Shown: positions 4,922-32,244 of the stretch, in pieces
Numbering within the stretch: the stretch's first letter is position 1
Layout of the letters: each line of letters opens with the position of its first letter
IMG/VR virus record: IMGVR_UViG_3300000893_000003
Span: 1 to 34,337 of that record
DNA: 34,337 nt
Source: a virus
Strand: one strand, 5' to 3'
Position numbers and translations under genes: made by a program
The notes under the pieces: generated by a model
Databases searched by the model: none
Told to the model about the DNA's origin: nothing
The model's input: the letters and a program-made list of their open reading frames with translations, nothing else

Positions 4922-5167
4922 TTAGTAGTCGAGCGCACGATATCCGCCGCGTGCGATGCTCGAATACATTTCCGTTTCACCCGACAAATAGGGTCTGATC
5001 CCGACACTAATGATCACGCAGATCAGGTGAAGGTCGATATAGGGGCCATAGCGTTGATTGGTTTTACCGGTGCGACGGCAACGCGGATCGATATGGATAC
5101 CGAGACTAATCCAGCCCATGTTGCTGAACTGGATCATCCAGTATTTGCCATGGATAATATACCACAT
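4922..5167 (-). CDS. Small conserved-type phage protein, unknown function
   Basis: An 81-residue aromatic-rich protein. Its core GWISLGIHIDPRCRRTG, then GPYIDLHLICVIISVG, resembles small proteins often seen in phage and plasmid genomes with a G.H.D..R....GPY.DLHL pattern. It has no transmembrane helix with clear boundaries. The ATG at 5167 comes directly after the T-tract of a minus-strand terminator hairpin (5169-5200), and no Shine-Dalgarno sequence precedes it, so translation may start later, for example at Met11 (5137). The function is unknown. Confidence 0.65.
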   Translation of the reverse strand: MWYIIHGKYWMIQFSNMGWISLGIHIDPRCRRTGKTNQRYGPYIDLHLICVIISVGIRPYLSGETEMYSSIARGGYRALDY

Positions 5168-25004: not shown

Positions 25005-25247
25005 TTACGCAGCCCTCGGAGAGGTCTGACTCTTCGAGGCAGCTTTCTTACCAAGCACCCTGTTCGCCTTGGCATCAATTTTAGCTTTTGAACTTGGACT
25101 GAGCTTACCGGCATTGACCATCTGTGTGGCTCTTGCTTTAGCATTAGCTGCGTGAGATTTATCCGGCATTGGATATTTGCGTTCACCCGGCAATCCGAAT
25201 GTCGAGCTTTTTAATTTATTCCGGGCTTTTGCTTTGAGCAGGGCCAT
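25005..25247 (-). CDS. DUF6582-like small basic phage protein
   Basis: An 80-residue protein. The pattern FGLPGERKYPMPDKSHAANA, then KARATQMVNAGKLSP and KAKIDAKANRVLGKK resembles phage proteins in which F.LP..R.YP.PD..HA.NA..R......G...S..K..V..K...K.P is conserved. The same sequence is known both as a free small protein and as the tail of head proteins. It is strongly basic and helical. The ATG at 25247 has GAGGA nine bases upstream. The function is unknown. Confidence 0.72.
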   Translation of the reverse strand: MALLKAKARNKLKSSTFGLPGERKYPMPDKSHAANAKARATQMVNAGKLSPSSKAKIDAKANRVLGKKAASKSQTSPRAA

Positions 25248-25945: not shown

Positions 25946-25966
25946 GCGCGTTTGGTTCGGTTCAAG
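25939..25966 (-). promoter_or_regulatory. Minus-strand sigma70 promoter at the origin
   Basis: Read on the minus strand: TTGAAC, a 16-bp spacer, then TATATG, overlapping the -10 of the opposite promoter. It would drive the leftward operon beginning at 25907. Confidence 0.5.
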
Positions 25967-25974
25967 GATCGCGA

Positions 25975-26172
25975 ATGATAGATAAAATTTTAGCTAAATT
26001 GTTCTTATATTCACTCAATTATTTGTTTGAACGAAGGGGGTGTTTTTTTGTATATAGGCAAGCTGACGGTTCAGTTCAAGGTTCAGTTAACGAAATGCTG
26101 AATCGGAATAGAGAGAAAAGGGAGTCCCTTCCCTTCAGCGAAGCGTTGAGCAGTACGACATTTTGGCTCTGA
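25975..26172 (+). CDS. Possible small basic protein at the origin
   Basis: A 65-residue product (MIDKILAKLFLYSLNYLFER, then GCFFVYRQADG, ending SSTTFWL). The ATG at 25975 has AAGGA six bases upstream and a good plus-strand promoter 30 bp away. The start is hydrophobic and amphipathic; the rest is basic. The stop codon lies in the loop of an inverted repeat of iteron halves (26155-26183). No family is recognised, and it might not be a gene; the promoter could instead make an origin-activating or regulatory RNA. Confidence 0.42.
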   Translation: MIDKILAKLFLYSLNYLFERRGCFFVYRQADGSVQGSVNEMLNRNREKRESLPFSEALSSTTFWL

Positions 26173-26183
26173 CAAAATGTCGT
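26155..26183. promoter_or_regulatory. Inverted pair of iteron halves
   Basis: The inverted repeat ACGACATTTTG/CAAAATGTCGT has 11-bp arms and a 7-nt spacer. The arms contain the same CGACA..TTG core as the iterons 66 bp away, as in plasmids where an inverted iteron pair is the autoregulatory operator of the initiator. Confidence 0.72.
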
Positions 26184-26248
26184 GCTTGTCTAGTGGAGTC
26201 TTAAAAAGGAGTCTTGTCACTTAATCTTTACTTGAGTCTAGTAGTATA

Positions 26249-26348
26249 CGACAGATTGTCGCCTTACACACGTCATTTTGTCGTATGATAACACGTCATT
26301 TTGTCGTGTGCTATACGACAATTTGTCCAATATAAGGCGACAATTTGG
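26249..26348. repeat. Iteron array, 22-bp period (candidate replication origin)
   Basis: Five copies of a core CG(A/T)CAnnTTGTCG start at 26249, 26271, 26294, 26316 and 26338, that is with spacings of 22, 23, 22 and 22 bp, two helical turns. Copies 1 to 3 have the full palindromic end; copies 4 and 5 are decayed on the right. An AT-rich stretch lies at 25976-26035. The gene for an initiator-like winged-helix protein ends 7 bp away at 26355. Confidence 0.87.
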
Positions 26349-26354
26349 TTTTGC

Positions 26355-27404
26355 CTACTTCTTCTTCGACTGCACGTAGGGTGGTAAAAGCTCCGTACGG
26401 AGGATGATATAGGTATCGATATCCATGTGTTTATTTTTCTTCACTCTGATCCATTTGCCATTTTCCAATTCAGGGATTGCGGTACGTTGGAGGGTACGCA
26501 CACTGCATCCGGCTTTGCTAGCGATATCCTCTTGGGATAGATTGCATTGTTTGGCGGACTGGCATTTTTTGAGGATGGCGAGTAACGCTATGCGAGAAAC
26601 AGGTGAGAGGTCTGACTGTTCGAATTGTGCCCAAGTTCGATTCATTAGCCGTTGGAACCCGTTGACCTCATAAAAATGGCTACGTTTTTCCTCACCACGT
26701 GCTAAGCCTTCCCGATAGGCTCGATAGTCTTTGATCAGAATGTTGGCTTTGCTATCTTTTGACCAATTGAACATCGGCCCATCGTCGGACAATTTCATTT
26801 CGATAAAATTGCCATTGTCGAGCAAATCTGTAGTTGTCCAGACAAACCCCAATTCGGCACCCATATGCCATTCGAGTGCATCGCGTAAAATGCTCCATTC
26901 TGTATTTTTGCTTTCAAGGGGTTGTTTTAGCCGCCAGATATAGACCTCGCCCTCTTCACGAATTGGTACTCCTAAAATCTCATAGACATAGTTTTTGATT
27001 CGTGGCGGCATGATGCCAGTGCTCACCAATCCATAGATGCGTTTGCTATCGGGATCAAGGATAGGACCAAAGAACGCGGGTGAATTTGACACTGATTCTT
27101 CGGCGGGTTCTTCGGCTGGCGGTATGGCTGTGGGCGGTTTTGGTGTTGCTTGAAGTCGATAGTTTTCGAGATAATGTTGTAGCTGCGATACCGTGCGGCT
27201 ATGATATGTCGTCATATCATATTCGATGTTATTCGTCTCCGCGATATAGACGATATCCTTGATGATCTCGTACCGTGGATCATCTTGTGTGATTCCGAGC
27301 TTGGTGATACCCTTTTCAAATTTGACCTTTGCGGCAATCGTTTTTACGTTGGTGCGCTCTTGAACATCCTGCCCGTTCGGCATAGATATGGATTGTTCGG
27401 TCAT
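26355..27404 (-). CDS. Replication-initiator-like protein with C-terminal winged helix
   Basis: A 349-residue protein from the ATG at 27404, which overlaps the upstream stop as TGATG; GTG at 27407 is an alternative. Residues about 1-100 are helical and followed by a Pro/Glu-rich linker (PKPPTAIPPAEEPAEE). A middle domain (110-260) has MPPRIKNYVYEILGVPIREE. The C-terminal 75 residues have the order of the HTH_36 winged helix of phage O-type initiators: SPVSRIALLAILKKCQSAKQ, NLSQEDIASKAGCSVRTLQR, then ELENGKWIRVKKNKHMD and DTYIIL. Such proteins bind origin repeats and load helicase. The iterons next to its 3' end support this role. It is coupled to the zinc-ribbon gene upstream. Confidence 0.75.
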   Translation of the reverse strand: MTEQSISMPNGQDVQERTNVKTIAAKVKFEKGITKLGITQDDPRYEIIKDIVYIAETNNIEYDMTTYHSRTVSQLQHYLENYRLQATPKPPTAIPPAEEPAEESVSNSPAFFGPILDPDSKRIYGLVSTGIMPPRIKNYVYEILGVPIREEGEVYIWRLKQPLESKNTEWSILRDALEWHMGAELGFVWTTTDLLDNGNFIEMKLSDDGPMFNWSKDSKANILIKDYRAYREGLARGEEKRSHFYEVNGFQRLMNRTWAQFEQSDLSPVSRIALLAILKKCQSAKQCNLSQEDIASKAGCSVRTLQRTAIPELENGKWIRVKKNKHMDIDTYIILRTELLPPYVQSKKK

Positions 27405-27829
27405 CACTTTTGCTCCTTCTTCTTAGCAAGGAATTCTTCATGCATTTCGAGAATGCTCGGCCAGAAATGATGGAAGCGATACGGCGACATATGAACCTTA
27501 TCGCCCCCCAGCAGCGTAAACAGCTTGCACGCTCGGTCACCCGGTTCGTATTTGGACGACGCGAAGAACCAAACGGTGTCGTTGAATTCGCACCCGGTGT
27601 TTTTGCACTTAAACATGAAGCCGCCATCTTTCATTATCTTGAACAGCGCGCTGCTCTCCGCACCACAGGACGGGCAGTCAAATTTTAATCCATAGGGGCC
27701 GGGAACACTGGGTAGCAATTCGATAAAAAGATTGGTATAGGTTCTCGGTGTATAAACAACCGGCCCCTTTTTCTTTCGTGGCTTTAGTGACTTGGGTAAT
27801 TTGACTTTGGTAAATAATTCATCTGTCAT
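27404..27829 (-). CDS. Zinc-ribbon protein, replication module
   Basis: A 141-residue protein. The N-terminal 30 residues are basic (KVKLPKSLKPRKKKG). Residues 52-80 form a four-cysteine ribbon (CPSCGAES, then MFKCKNTGCEF; Cys52, Cys55, Cys75, Cys80), like the zinc ribbons of primases and DNA-binding replication factors. The C-terminal part contains RACKLFTLLGGDKVHMSP and a charged helix. It is encoded directly upstream of the initiator-like gene and coupled to it, so a role in primosome or origin function is likely. It lacks the TOPRIM or polymerase domain of a full primase. Confidence 0.72.
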   Translation of the reverse strand: MTDELFTKVKLPKSLKPRKKKGPVVYTPRTYTNLFIELLPSVPGPYGLKFDCPSCGAESSALFKIMKDGGFMFKCKNTGCEFNDTVWFFASSKYEPGDRACKLFTLLGGDKVHMSPYRFHHFWPSILEMHEEFLAKKKEQK

Positions 27830-27909: not shown

Positions 27910-28107
27910 TTAGTCGGTTACGCCTTTGAGCAAGGACTCTTCGATATCCTGCTCATTATAATAATTCCGTTTGCCAATGGAGATCGGCTTGCTGATGACG
28001 CCATTCTTCTCCCACCGACTCAACGTCATCCCACTGATGCCAAACCGCTCTTCAATGAGCCTTGTGACCTTAAAGGTCTTACCACCTAACACCATTTCGT
28101 CTTTCAT
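27910..28107 (-). CDS. HTH (MerR/excisionase-type) DNA-binding protein
   Basis: A 65-residue protein from the ATG at 28107, chosen because GGAGG lies 11 nt upstream and the longer frame has no site. The whole chain is a winged HTH: KTFKVTRLIEERFGISGMTL, SRWEKNGVISKPISIGKRNY, then YNEQDIEESLL. This is the pattern of AlpA/Xis and MerR-type DNA-binding domains. An inverted repeat (28126-28157) in its leader is a likely operator. It is placed between a divergent plus-strand gene and the replication operon, suggesting a regulator of early transcription or copy control. Confidence 0.8.
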   Translation of the reverse strand: MKDEMVLGGKTFKVTRLIEERFGISGMTLSRWEKNGVISKPISIGKRNYYNEQDIEESLLKGVTD

Positions 28108-28125
28108 GCTTGTATTAACCTCCAA

Positions 28126-28157
28126 ATATGCACTGGTACGCACTTGTTTGTGCATAT
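28126..28157. promoter_or_regulatory. Operator-like inverted repeat
   Basis: ATATGCAC/GTGCATAT, perfect 8-bp arms separated by 16 bp, directly upstream of the ribosome binding site of the HTH gene and between it and the divergent gene at 28281. Confidence 0.65.
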
Positions 28158-28280
28158 CCTCTATATAGGCTGACAGCTTCATATAACAAGGATTATGATT
28201 CACAAAAAAATCATCATCTGTGCTATTGCTATCCTCGTGGGACGACATATATCTGTATTGTACCAACGAGAGGATAGGTT

Positions 28281-29908: not shown

Positions 29909-29962
29909 AGAGAGTCACACAAGTGTGTGAAGGTGTGTTCAATCTTTCTCTGGAGAAAGATC

Positions 29963-30847
29963 ATGGCGCTCACCAACGATCCAATGCAGCTTGCATGGGC
30001 TGACATGTCCCATGCAGTTAAGTTAGTACGCGAGGGGTACACACGGCTGGTGTTTATTGGCGGAGCACCAGGGATTGGCAAATCCCGCCAAGTGATTGAA
30101 GACCTTCGCAGCTACGTCCAGCAGGAAGAAGCTCTCTGGGCAATGATCGCTGATGAAAACAAGCGTGAGCTTGCTGGTCGGCGCACAGCGATCACTGTAG
30201 AAGGTCAGCTTGTGTTTGTCCCACCTGTTCATATTATTCCCGGCGGCGACCGCAACGAGATCAATCTCTATATGCACTTGTATCAATGCTCGTATCCAGG
30301 CGAGATTGGTGTCCTTGATGATGCACCTGCGGCTGCTTATAAACGGCCCCAGGAATTGCTTAACGATGCCTGTGATGAAGAACGCAACGGCAAGGTGTCA
30401 ATGGATCGCGGGCATAAGATTCTTGCGGCATGCGGTGTCCCAACCGAGTACAACTTCCATGGCGGGTTGATTCTCATCCACAACTATACGCAGGCCGAGA
30501 TCAACCACATATTCCATCAACGTGTACGTAGTCGAGCTTATATCGTCAACTTCCCTACTGACCCAGCGATCCTCTTCCGCTATGTCTATGAGACTGGCAT
30601 CAAGCAGAAAAGCCTGTTGCCTTATCTCAAGGCGCTAAACAACAGGGCGCTGGGCCGCAATCGTGGGCTGGGATTATCGGATGCCGAAGCTCAGCAATGC
30701 CTGAATGATCTCGACAAATTCTACTTCACCTTCCAAGAGCGTGTACCCGAACATAGCTTTCGCTTGCTCCGGACCATCGCGATGGACTGGGCAACGGATC
30801 GGGTGCATTGGGAGCGGCGTGCAAAAAATCGCTTCCGCATCCGCTAA
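29963..30847 (+). CDS. AAA+ family ATPase
   Basis: A 294-residue protein from the ATG at 29963 (GGAG nearby; an upstream GTG/TTG start is not needed). The Walker A motif GGAPGIGKS is at residues 33-41, Walker B is GVLDDA at about 116-121, a sensor-1-like strand is LILIHNYTQ, and there is an Arg pair in QRVRSRAYIV that could be the arginine finger. The C-terminal part is helical. It lacks the ParA deviant Walker motif, helicase motifs and a protease domain. It resembles MoxR/RuvB-type small AAA+ proteins. It is transcribed from its own strong promoter together with an AT-hook protein, so a DNA-related remodelling or loading function is plausible. Confidence 0.82.
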   Translation: MALTNDPMQLAWADMSHAVKLVREGYTRLVFIGGAPGIGKSRQVIEDLRSYVQQEEALWAMIADENKRELAGRRTAITVEGQLVFVPPVHIIPGGDRNEINLYMHLYQCSYPGEIGVLDDAPAAAYKRPQELLNDACDEERNGKVSMDRGHKILAACGVPTEYNFHGGLILIHNYTQAEINHIFHQRVRSRAYIVNFPTDPAILFRYVYETGIKQKSLLPYLKALNNRALGRNRGLGLSDAEAQQCLNDLDKFYFTFQERVPEHSFRLLRTIAMDWATDRVHWERRAKNRFRIR

Positions 30848-30912: not shown

Positions 30913-32244
30913 ATGGCAGTTGCAGGACGACCACGCGGACGACCGAAAAAGAATAGCAATGCGGTGTCACCAATCGCTTCTTCGTGGGTTTTTGATGAGA
31001 AAGCCGCCGAGGGAGCAATGGGCCAGTTTGAGTACACAGCCAGACAATTGGCCCAAACAGAAGCTGACCGTTTGGGCGGCTTCCGTAGTTTGGCACGTGC
31101 CGCACGTGAGTTTATCGTCACGCTGTTCCCGATGAATGAGCTTGACAAGCTCAAGCGTGAGATCGGCCAGCATGACAAAGACGTGACGCTGAGCATGCCG
31201 CAGGATGTGAGCGATTTTCTCTACAAACATCGCTTGCCGCAGCCATATTGGACGGCACGTAACCCGTTCCTCGGCATCATTCAGGCTGTATGGTCGGATG
31301 CGGTGAATGAAGAAACATTTACCCGTAATTCGATTAATATCATGGACGGGATACCTTCTCTGACTGACGAAGGTCTCGAACCAGCGGACGTGGCAAATAT
31401 CGCACAGAGTCGTAAACCCGAAGACCAGGACAAGATCATCGAACCAACGGTGAAAACCGCCAATGCCAATTACGTGATGATCAGCCGATGGGCGATGCTG
31501 GTATGTGCTTCGATAGATCGCGATGATATCAATATCATCGAGCAAAACCCCATCACGGCATTAAAGGATTATGTCAAGTGGCGTGAAAAGCATCGCACAT
31601 TGGCATTGCCCAAGCCCACCAGCAAGCGTGGTGAGAAGAAGAAGAGCAATGGCGATGACGACGAGATGACAGATGCCGAGAAGGCACGCGTCGAAGAGTG
31701 GGAAGCTCAGAACAAAGAAAGCCGAGACGCATTCAAAACCGATGAAGCTTCACCGGAACCCAATCCACAAGCTGCGACATCAGAAGCGGAGGCTGCACCA
31801 GAAGCTGCACCAGAAACAGCACCAGAAGCTGCACCAGAAACAGCACCAGAAGCTGCACCAGAAGCTGCACCAGAAACAGCACCAGAAGCTGCACCAGAAA
31901 CAGCACCAGAAACAGCACCAGAAGCTGCACCAGAAGCTGCACCAGAAACAGCGTCAGAAGCAGAGGTTGAACCGGAATCGCCATCGATAGAGTTAGAGGT
32001 GGTGAAAGTCCCACGCGACTTGATCGAACCGGTCGGTGACATAACCTTTGGTCAGAACCTGCAAGCAGTGTTCGAACGGGCTGGAATCAAATCAATGCCC
32101 GATCCAGGGCTGTACAATACCCAGAACGAAGTCGAAAGCTGGGTACGCATCAATGGTCAATGGTTTGGACCCAACCTCGATCCAATGACAAGCGCATTAG
32201 TAGCTCGGGAGATCGCAAAGATCACAAAGGTAGAGGCGCAATAA
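30913..32244 (+). CDS. AT-hook protein with (A/T)APE repeats, partner of the AAA+ ATPase
   Basis: A 443-residue protein; ATG 30913 with AGGAGG five bases upstream. Residues 5-13 (GRPRGRPKK) are an AT-hook that binds AT-rich minor groove. Residues about 20-245 form a helical domain (FEYTARQLAQTEADRLGGFR, DVSDFLYKHRLPQPYWTARN). A charged segment follows, then 14 tandem tetrapeptides of (A/T)APE type (about 294-349) forming an extended rod. The C-terminal 75 residues (DLIEPVGDITFGQNLQAVFE, then WVRINGQWFGPNLDPMTSAL) form a small domain. It is probably DNA-binding and works with the preceding ATPase. The family is not recognised. Confidence 0.8.
   Translation: MAVAGRPRGRPKKNSNAVSPIASSWVFDEKAAEGAMGQFEYTARQLAQTEADRLGGFRSLARAAREFIVTLFPMNELDKLKREIGQHDKDVTLSMPQDVSDFLYKHRLPQPYWTARNPFLGIIQAVWSDAVNEETFTRNSINIMDGIPSLTDEGLEPADVANIAQSRKPEDQDKIIEPTVKTANANYVMISRWAMLVCASIDRDDINIIEQNPITALKDYVKWREKHRTLALPKPTSKRGEKKKSNGDDDEMTDAEKARVEEWEAQNKESRDAFKTDEASPEPNPQAATSEAEAAPEAAPETAPEAAPETAPEAAPEAAPETAPEAAPETAPETAPEAAPEAAPETASEAEVEPESPSIELEVVKVPRDLIEPVGDITFGQNLQAVFERAGIKSMPDPGLYNTQNEVESWVRINGQWFGPNLDPMTSALVAREIAKITKVEAQ
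31792..31959 (+). repeat. 12-bp tandem repeats encoding (A/T)APE
   Basis: Fourteen in-frame 12-bp units, GCTGCACCAGAA or ACAGCACCAGAA; the last is diverged. The translation is a Pro/Glu/Ala-rich rod. Confidence 0.93.

Follow-up and report, generated by a model that had tools for sequence, protein, structure and literature searches.

Known origins and the present locus

In phage lambda, whose origin ori-lambda has been described (PMC7466680), the initiator O carries its winged-helix DNA-binding domain at the N-terminus, near-palindromic iterons around an A-tract lie in the middle of its gene, and an AT-rich tract follows the array; a C-terminal domain completes the protein, and replication relies on the host replisome. 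As the origin of lambda and of many of its relatives lies inside the initiator gene, a mutation in the DNA may also alter the protein, and the two roles are hard to separate. The DnaD-like or replisome-organizer initiators of phages such as Staphylococcus phage P954 likewise have an N-terminal winged helix and a coding array, often next to a helicase or helicase-loader gene. Among plasmids, those of the RepA_N group use semi-palindromic iterons around an A-tract (PMC7145576), and the RK2 plasmid protein TrfA binds the 13-mers of the unwinding element on one strand (PMC4081077).

Here, we describe a phage locus in which the lambda-type parts occur in unchanged order outside the gene, which relieves the origin DNA of coding constraint. 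As in lambda, a winged-helix initiator, near-palindromic A-tract iterons and an AT-rich tract past the array are found, and the host replisome is probably used. Unlike in lambda, the winged helix comes last in the protein, the array lies past the stop codon, and no match was obtained for the N-terminal 260 aa. As judged from the sequences compared, the array outside the gene and the winged helix as last domain are the new features. Since the elements are extragenic, the persistence of the iterons, the AGAYT repeats and the AT-rich tract here must reflect selection at the DNA level, and the origin of this phage can be dissected without altering the protein.

The window analyzed is the whole virus record IMGVR_UViG_3300000893_000003 (34,337 bases). 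It contains a tailed-phage gene set, including portal (phrog_1216, E 3e-130), terminase and SU10-type capsid genes, along with one for a tail fibre bearing an S74 chaperone domain. The record lacks a terminal repeat. A minus-strand tail-fibre-like reading frame of ~446 aa crosses the record ends (34337 to 1) in frame and without a stop, which suggests, but does not prove, that the record is a circular, complete genome. The features of the proposed origin region are as follows:

25956–26055, no strand: AT-rich stretch, likely the DNA unwinding element; least stable duplex of the record
26152–26186, no strand: 14-bp dyad with iteron half-sites, CGACATTTTG...CAAAATGTCG
26195–26243, minus strand (gene strand): AGAYT repeats with first bases at 26239, 26227, 26214 and 26201, 12–13 bp apart
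26249–26261, plus strand: iteron 1, CGACAGATTGTCG, exact core
26271–26283, plus strand: iteron 2, CGTCATTTTGTCG, exact core
26294–26306, plus strand: iteron 3, CGTCATTTTGTCG, exact core
26316–26328, plus strand: iteron 4, CGACAATTTGTCC, one mismatch to the core pattern
26338–26350, minus strand: iteron 5, half-site; by its flank, the 26249 site in inverted orientation
26355–27407, minus strand: initiator (rep) gene, 350 aa, GTG start, stop codon at 26355–26357
27404–27829, minus strand: zinc-ribbon-like gene, 141 aa, overlapping the rep start; weak matches only

A non-coding array of near-palindromic iterons

The initial annotation listed five cores of the form CG(A/T)CAnnTTGTCG. Three of them (26249, 26271 and 26294) match the core pattern CGWCANNTTGTCG exactly, and the one at 26316 carries a single mismatch. 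The fifth, at 26338 (CGACAATTTGGTT), turned out to be a half-site that retains the left half only, and its minus-strand flank TTGTCGCCTTA marks it as an inverted copy of the 26249 site. The reported start spacing of 22, 23, 22 and 22 bp is correct. In gene-strand orientation, the iteron unit is CGACAAAATGACG or close to it, as in CGACAATCTGTCG, with two arms and an A-rich centre, and the cores are near-palindromic around this A-tract. The gene-strand sequence of iteron 1, CGACAATCTGTCG, is identical to one iteron of the IMG/VR locus L009.

The array is far above chance expectation: a span of 110 bp contains four sites that deviate from the core by no more than one mismatch, while 100 dinucleotide-shuffled versions of the window never gave a cluster larger than a single site, or than two sites when two mismatches were allowed. 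Self-similarity at a lag of 22/23 peaks, window-wide, in the 110-bp windows that start at 26234–26248. Read along the gene strand, the array begins with iteron 5, 4 bp past the initiator stop codon, and is therefore outside the gene; beyond this stop codon all three frames contain stops, and the array is non-coding. It sits in a 447-bp intergenic region upstream of leftward-read genes. Palindromic iterons and the inverted outer copies largely account for the hairpin potential of the array (z −5.3). As single-stranded DNA, the dyad at 26152–26186 folds well below its shuffles (z −4.4), and it may be an accessory initiator site or a hairpin. The near-palindromic A-tract cores, this dyad and the AGAYT repeats at ~26195–26243 were absent from the initial annotation.

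The probable initiator ends in a winged helix

A C-terminal winged helix of the O/HTH_36 type had been proposed for the gene ending at 26355, and this assignment was borne out. HTH_36 (PF13730) scored 25.6 bits in the genome search, just above the cut-off of 25, and the winged helix, contained in the last ~80 residues, forms the C-terminal domain at about aa 265–335 or 273–330 of 350, with no domain after it and the stop codon 36 aa downstream of the recognition helix. The best PHROG matches of the 350-aa protein are replication initiators, and Phage_rep_O (PF04492) reached only E = 0.098. No match to the first 260 aa was obtained in the searches made, nor did the whole initiator match any of 50,697 phage and 72,556 plasmid records. 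Likewise, single-protein searches of IMG/VR with the initiator, the portal and the terminase did not reveal close relatives. A close homologue of the whole initiator was found in none of the collections searched, and the conservation described below is that of arrays in other phages.

When the last 106 aa were modelled from an alignment with seven initiators, a mean pLDDT of 82.5 was reached; the prediction for the full-length initiator was set aside (mean pLDDT 46). The model matches DNA-binding winged helices, including the RepA_N-type initiators 4pql and 4pt7 over 90 residues (Z 8.2–8.4), with which CRP-type domains tie. The best PDB matches are thus generic winged helices, and the modelled fold alone is no proof of initiator identity. 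The alignment also gave profile matches to TAL effectors, but these covered only ~30 positions and were dismissed as chance. The 141-aa zinc-ribbon-like gene is probably co-transcribed with rep.

Phage initiators with the same order of elements

A scan of IMG/VR by DNA only, using the iteron pattern, returned 46 loci, many of them due to chance. Twelve ORFs in these loci score above 70 bits with the winged-helix profile, and in 12 of 12 the array lies inside the ORF, 3′ of the winged-helix code; seven of these ORFs built the profile, while the other five did not, though two are duplicates of profile members. The initiators returned are phage initiators of the O/DnaD-like class, with the order winged-helix code, iterons 22–24 bp apart and AGAY-rich AT tract. 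The first core lies 117 bp from the recognition-helix code in the window, compared with 48–218 bp in the other loci measured. Matches of a three-iteron pattern in bacterial genomes mostly reflected coincidences in coding repeats, and these hits were rejected as origins.

One of these initiators, that of locus L052, matches several records, including lambda O in its C-terminal part, and a further comparison set of phage records with annotated replication genes was reached via this match. The order winged helix, near-palindromic repeats, AT-rich tract recurs in lambda (locus L084, Lambda_ev087), in E. coli phage mEp460 and in Staphylococcus, Klebsiella, Xanthomonas, Vibrio and Bacteroides phages. 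Their repeats are mostly 22–24 bp apart and often centred on CAAAATG, the arrays of lambda and of the E. coli, Staphylococcus, Klebsiella, Xanthomonas and Bacteroides phages are intragenic, and some comparison arrays adjoin helicase-loader or helicase genes. No clear array was seen in the Geobacillus (L065) and Vibrio (L070) loci. The iteron arms vary from phage to phage, as would follow if every initiator recognized its own iterons. The loci with DnaD-like initiators (phage P954; L023, L046, L048 and L052) share with the window the spacing of 22–23 bp, the order of the parts and AGAYT repeats past the array; those from IMG/VR also have CGACA arms flanking an A-tract core.

A C-terminal winged helix with a non-coding array is contrary to the great majority of the comparison set. 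Two partial precedents for this arrangement were found. Locus L026 has a short ORF whose stop codon lies inside the array. Pelagibacter phage HTVC106P, which has a related portal, encodes the 132-aa winged-helix protein gp70, in which the winged helix is followed by palindromic repeats at a spacing of 47 bp and an AT-rich end, with no C-terminal domain; unlike in the window, the arm is ACTACCC, the repeats lie inside the gene and an N-terminal extension is absent.

Recognition helices and iteron arms tended to pair in the loci compared for this purpose (L004, L009, L020, L023, L046, L048, L052, L053 and L064–L084): S-x-[RK]-T-x-[QE]-R with CGACA, S-E-S-T-x-K-R with GGTCA, and S-L-x-T-I-K-R with GTATCA. 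The pairing may represent a specificity code of O-type initiators, with L020 and L075 as exceptions. The contigs of L024, L033, L040 and L041 share intergenic GCGACAATTTGTCGC palindromes, beside which no winged-helix gene was found.

AT-rich tract, AGAYT repeats and GC skew

The AT-rich stretch previously placed at 25976–26035 was confirmed; at scales of 40, 60 and 100 bp, no duplex of the record is weaker, and the stretch of least stability extends over 25956–26055. The AGAYT cluster at 26195–26243 is the densest in the record on either strand, and the iterons, this cluster and the weakest duplex share one 450-bp interval. We put forward the AGAYT repeats as a putative strand-specific unwinding element, for which the strand binding of TrfA (PMC4081077) provides a precedent.

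The occurrence of AGAC/AGAT in the 75 bp beyond the array was compared for 25 loci, with the expectation taken from shuffles of the same letters. The motif occurs 57 times on the gene strand versus 12 times for the reverse motif, with 21 expected, in a set of loci several of which are related and for a motif spotted before counting. The gene strand leads in 17 loci and trails in one, and the window itself has 5 versus 0 occurrences, with 0.7 expected. Given the relatedness of several loci and the prior sighting of the motif, we regard the strand bias as a lead, not as proof. The AGAY tract is coding in the other phages (e.g., TENTTEITTEN in mEp460) and non-coding in the window, which favours selection on the DNA. 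It is conceivable, though somewhat short of probable, that AGAY repeats ~12 bp apart beyond the iterons are a genuine second, strand-specific element across O-type origins rather than a by-product of the protein code, and that they form the single strand held by the initiator as the duplex melts, much as TrfA binds its 13-mers. If so, the extragenic AGAY element of the window would be natural evidence for such an element and would offer a freely mutable lambda-type origin.

In the full-genome GC skew, which had been suggested as a check, the cumulative minimum lies at 25,122, at a distance of 1.1 kb from the array, and the maximum at 5,096–5,105, the two being ~14 kb apart across the joined ends. 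Such a pattern would be expected of bidirectional replication starting close to the array, but the signal is shallow and may partly reflect transcription.

A probable variant of the lambda-O-type origin

With the elements, order and winged helix described above and their conservation in other phages, the interval ~25950–26355 is very probably a phage replication origin of the lambda-O type. It has the HTH_36/O-like winged-helix initiator, at least four near-palindromic iterons and the AT-rich tract on the far side, while the array is not inside the initiator gene and the protein does not show an N-terminal DNA-binding domain followed by a C-terminal O domain. The locus is therefore best seen as a variant that would work like an O-type origin and departs from the classic form in these two features. 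Moreover, it illustrates that a winged helix ending an otherwise unrelated protein can stay beside its iterons.

The near-palindromic iterons recur every 22–23 bp, or roughly two turns of the helix. We infer that they are bound by the winged helix at the C-terminus of the 350-aa protein, and that each is probably occupied by a dimer. The bound initiators would stack into an O-some-like complex and melt the adjoining AT-rich tract. The one-strand AGAYT repeats, 12–13 bp apart, would mark the side of strand opening and may be the single strand held by the initiator. The host replicative helicase and polymerase would then be loaded, the helicase by the N-terminal 260 aa or by another protein, and theta replication would follow. 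Neither a DnaB-type helicase nor a family-A polymerase (PolA) was matched in the record, and the phage therefore probably uses the host replisome. The P-loop ATPase gene at 29927–30847, which is read away from rep and belongs by its match to phrog_1250 (a family of unknown function, E 2e-11), encodes a candidate helicase loader.

The palindromic cores, the position of the array in the intergenic region upstream of the leftward genes and the many transcription regulators among the structure matches would also agree with an operator, at which the winged-helix protein or the MerR-like product of 27910–28266 regulates the downstream genes and has no role in replication. However, the array is not at the promoter of the initiator's own gene, and promoter-like sites in the region are no more frequent than by chance. 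The first matches of the protein are replication-initiator families, arrays with the same motif in other phages lie inside initiator genes and beside helicase-loader or helicase genes, and the weakest AT-rich duplex together with the AGAYT repeats suits an origin. We therefore consider an operator unlikely.

The initial annotation correctly recognized an iteron origin beside an initiator gene, but called it plasmid-type and, given the missing integrase, considered it reasonable to infer that the phage is maintained extrachromosomally as a phage-plasmid. Indeed, neither a tyrosine nor a serine integrase was found in the record, the iterons adjoin the initiator gene, and RepA_N plasmids (PMC7145576) resemble the locus in their iterons and, with the initiators of pSK41 and pTZ2162 and PLE RepA, in a similar winged-helix fold. 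The lack of an integrase is equally expected of a lytic phage, however, and integrase-free extrachromosomal mycobacterial prophages carry parABS (PMC7157519), whereas a ParA-type ATPase (PF13614) is absent from the record. The initiator has no Rep_3 match and resembles RepA_N proteins in fold only, not in sequence, and relatives of it were found neither among 72,556 plasmid records nor among 50,697 phage records. Tandem near-palindromic A-tract iterons are equally present in ordinary lytic and integrating phages, lambda-type phages among them, and are thus no pointer to plasmids. A phage-plasmid lifestyle is not supported by these results, and a plasmid-type origin appears quite improbable, even more so than an operator. 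Least plausible of all, to the point of being very hard to credit, is an array of parS-like partition or packaging recognition repeats: some parS sites are short repeat arrays, and the terminase genes, on the same strand, are a few kb distant, but no ParA was found, the array adjoins the initiator gene rather than the terminase, and the same class of array lies inside initiator genes elsewhere.

Other features of the genome

Two further repeats were observed outside the lambda-O-type origin proposed here. A 34-bp repeat is present in four copies at 20863–21001, between the portal and terminase genes, and ~13 copies of the 12-bp repeat GCTGCACCAGAA at 31792–31961, inside the ORF 30913–32244, encode a linker rich in Ala, Pro and Glu. 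Amid the minus-strand tail genes, a plus-strand gene (877–1254) encodes a small membrane methyltransferase-like protein (PEMT/ICMT) and is possibly host-derived.
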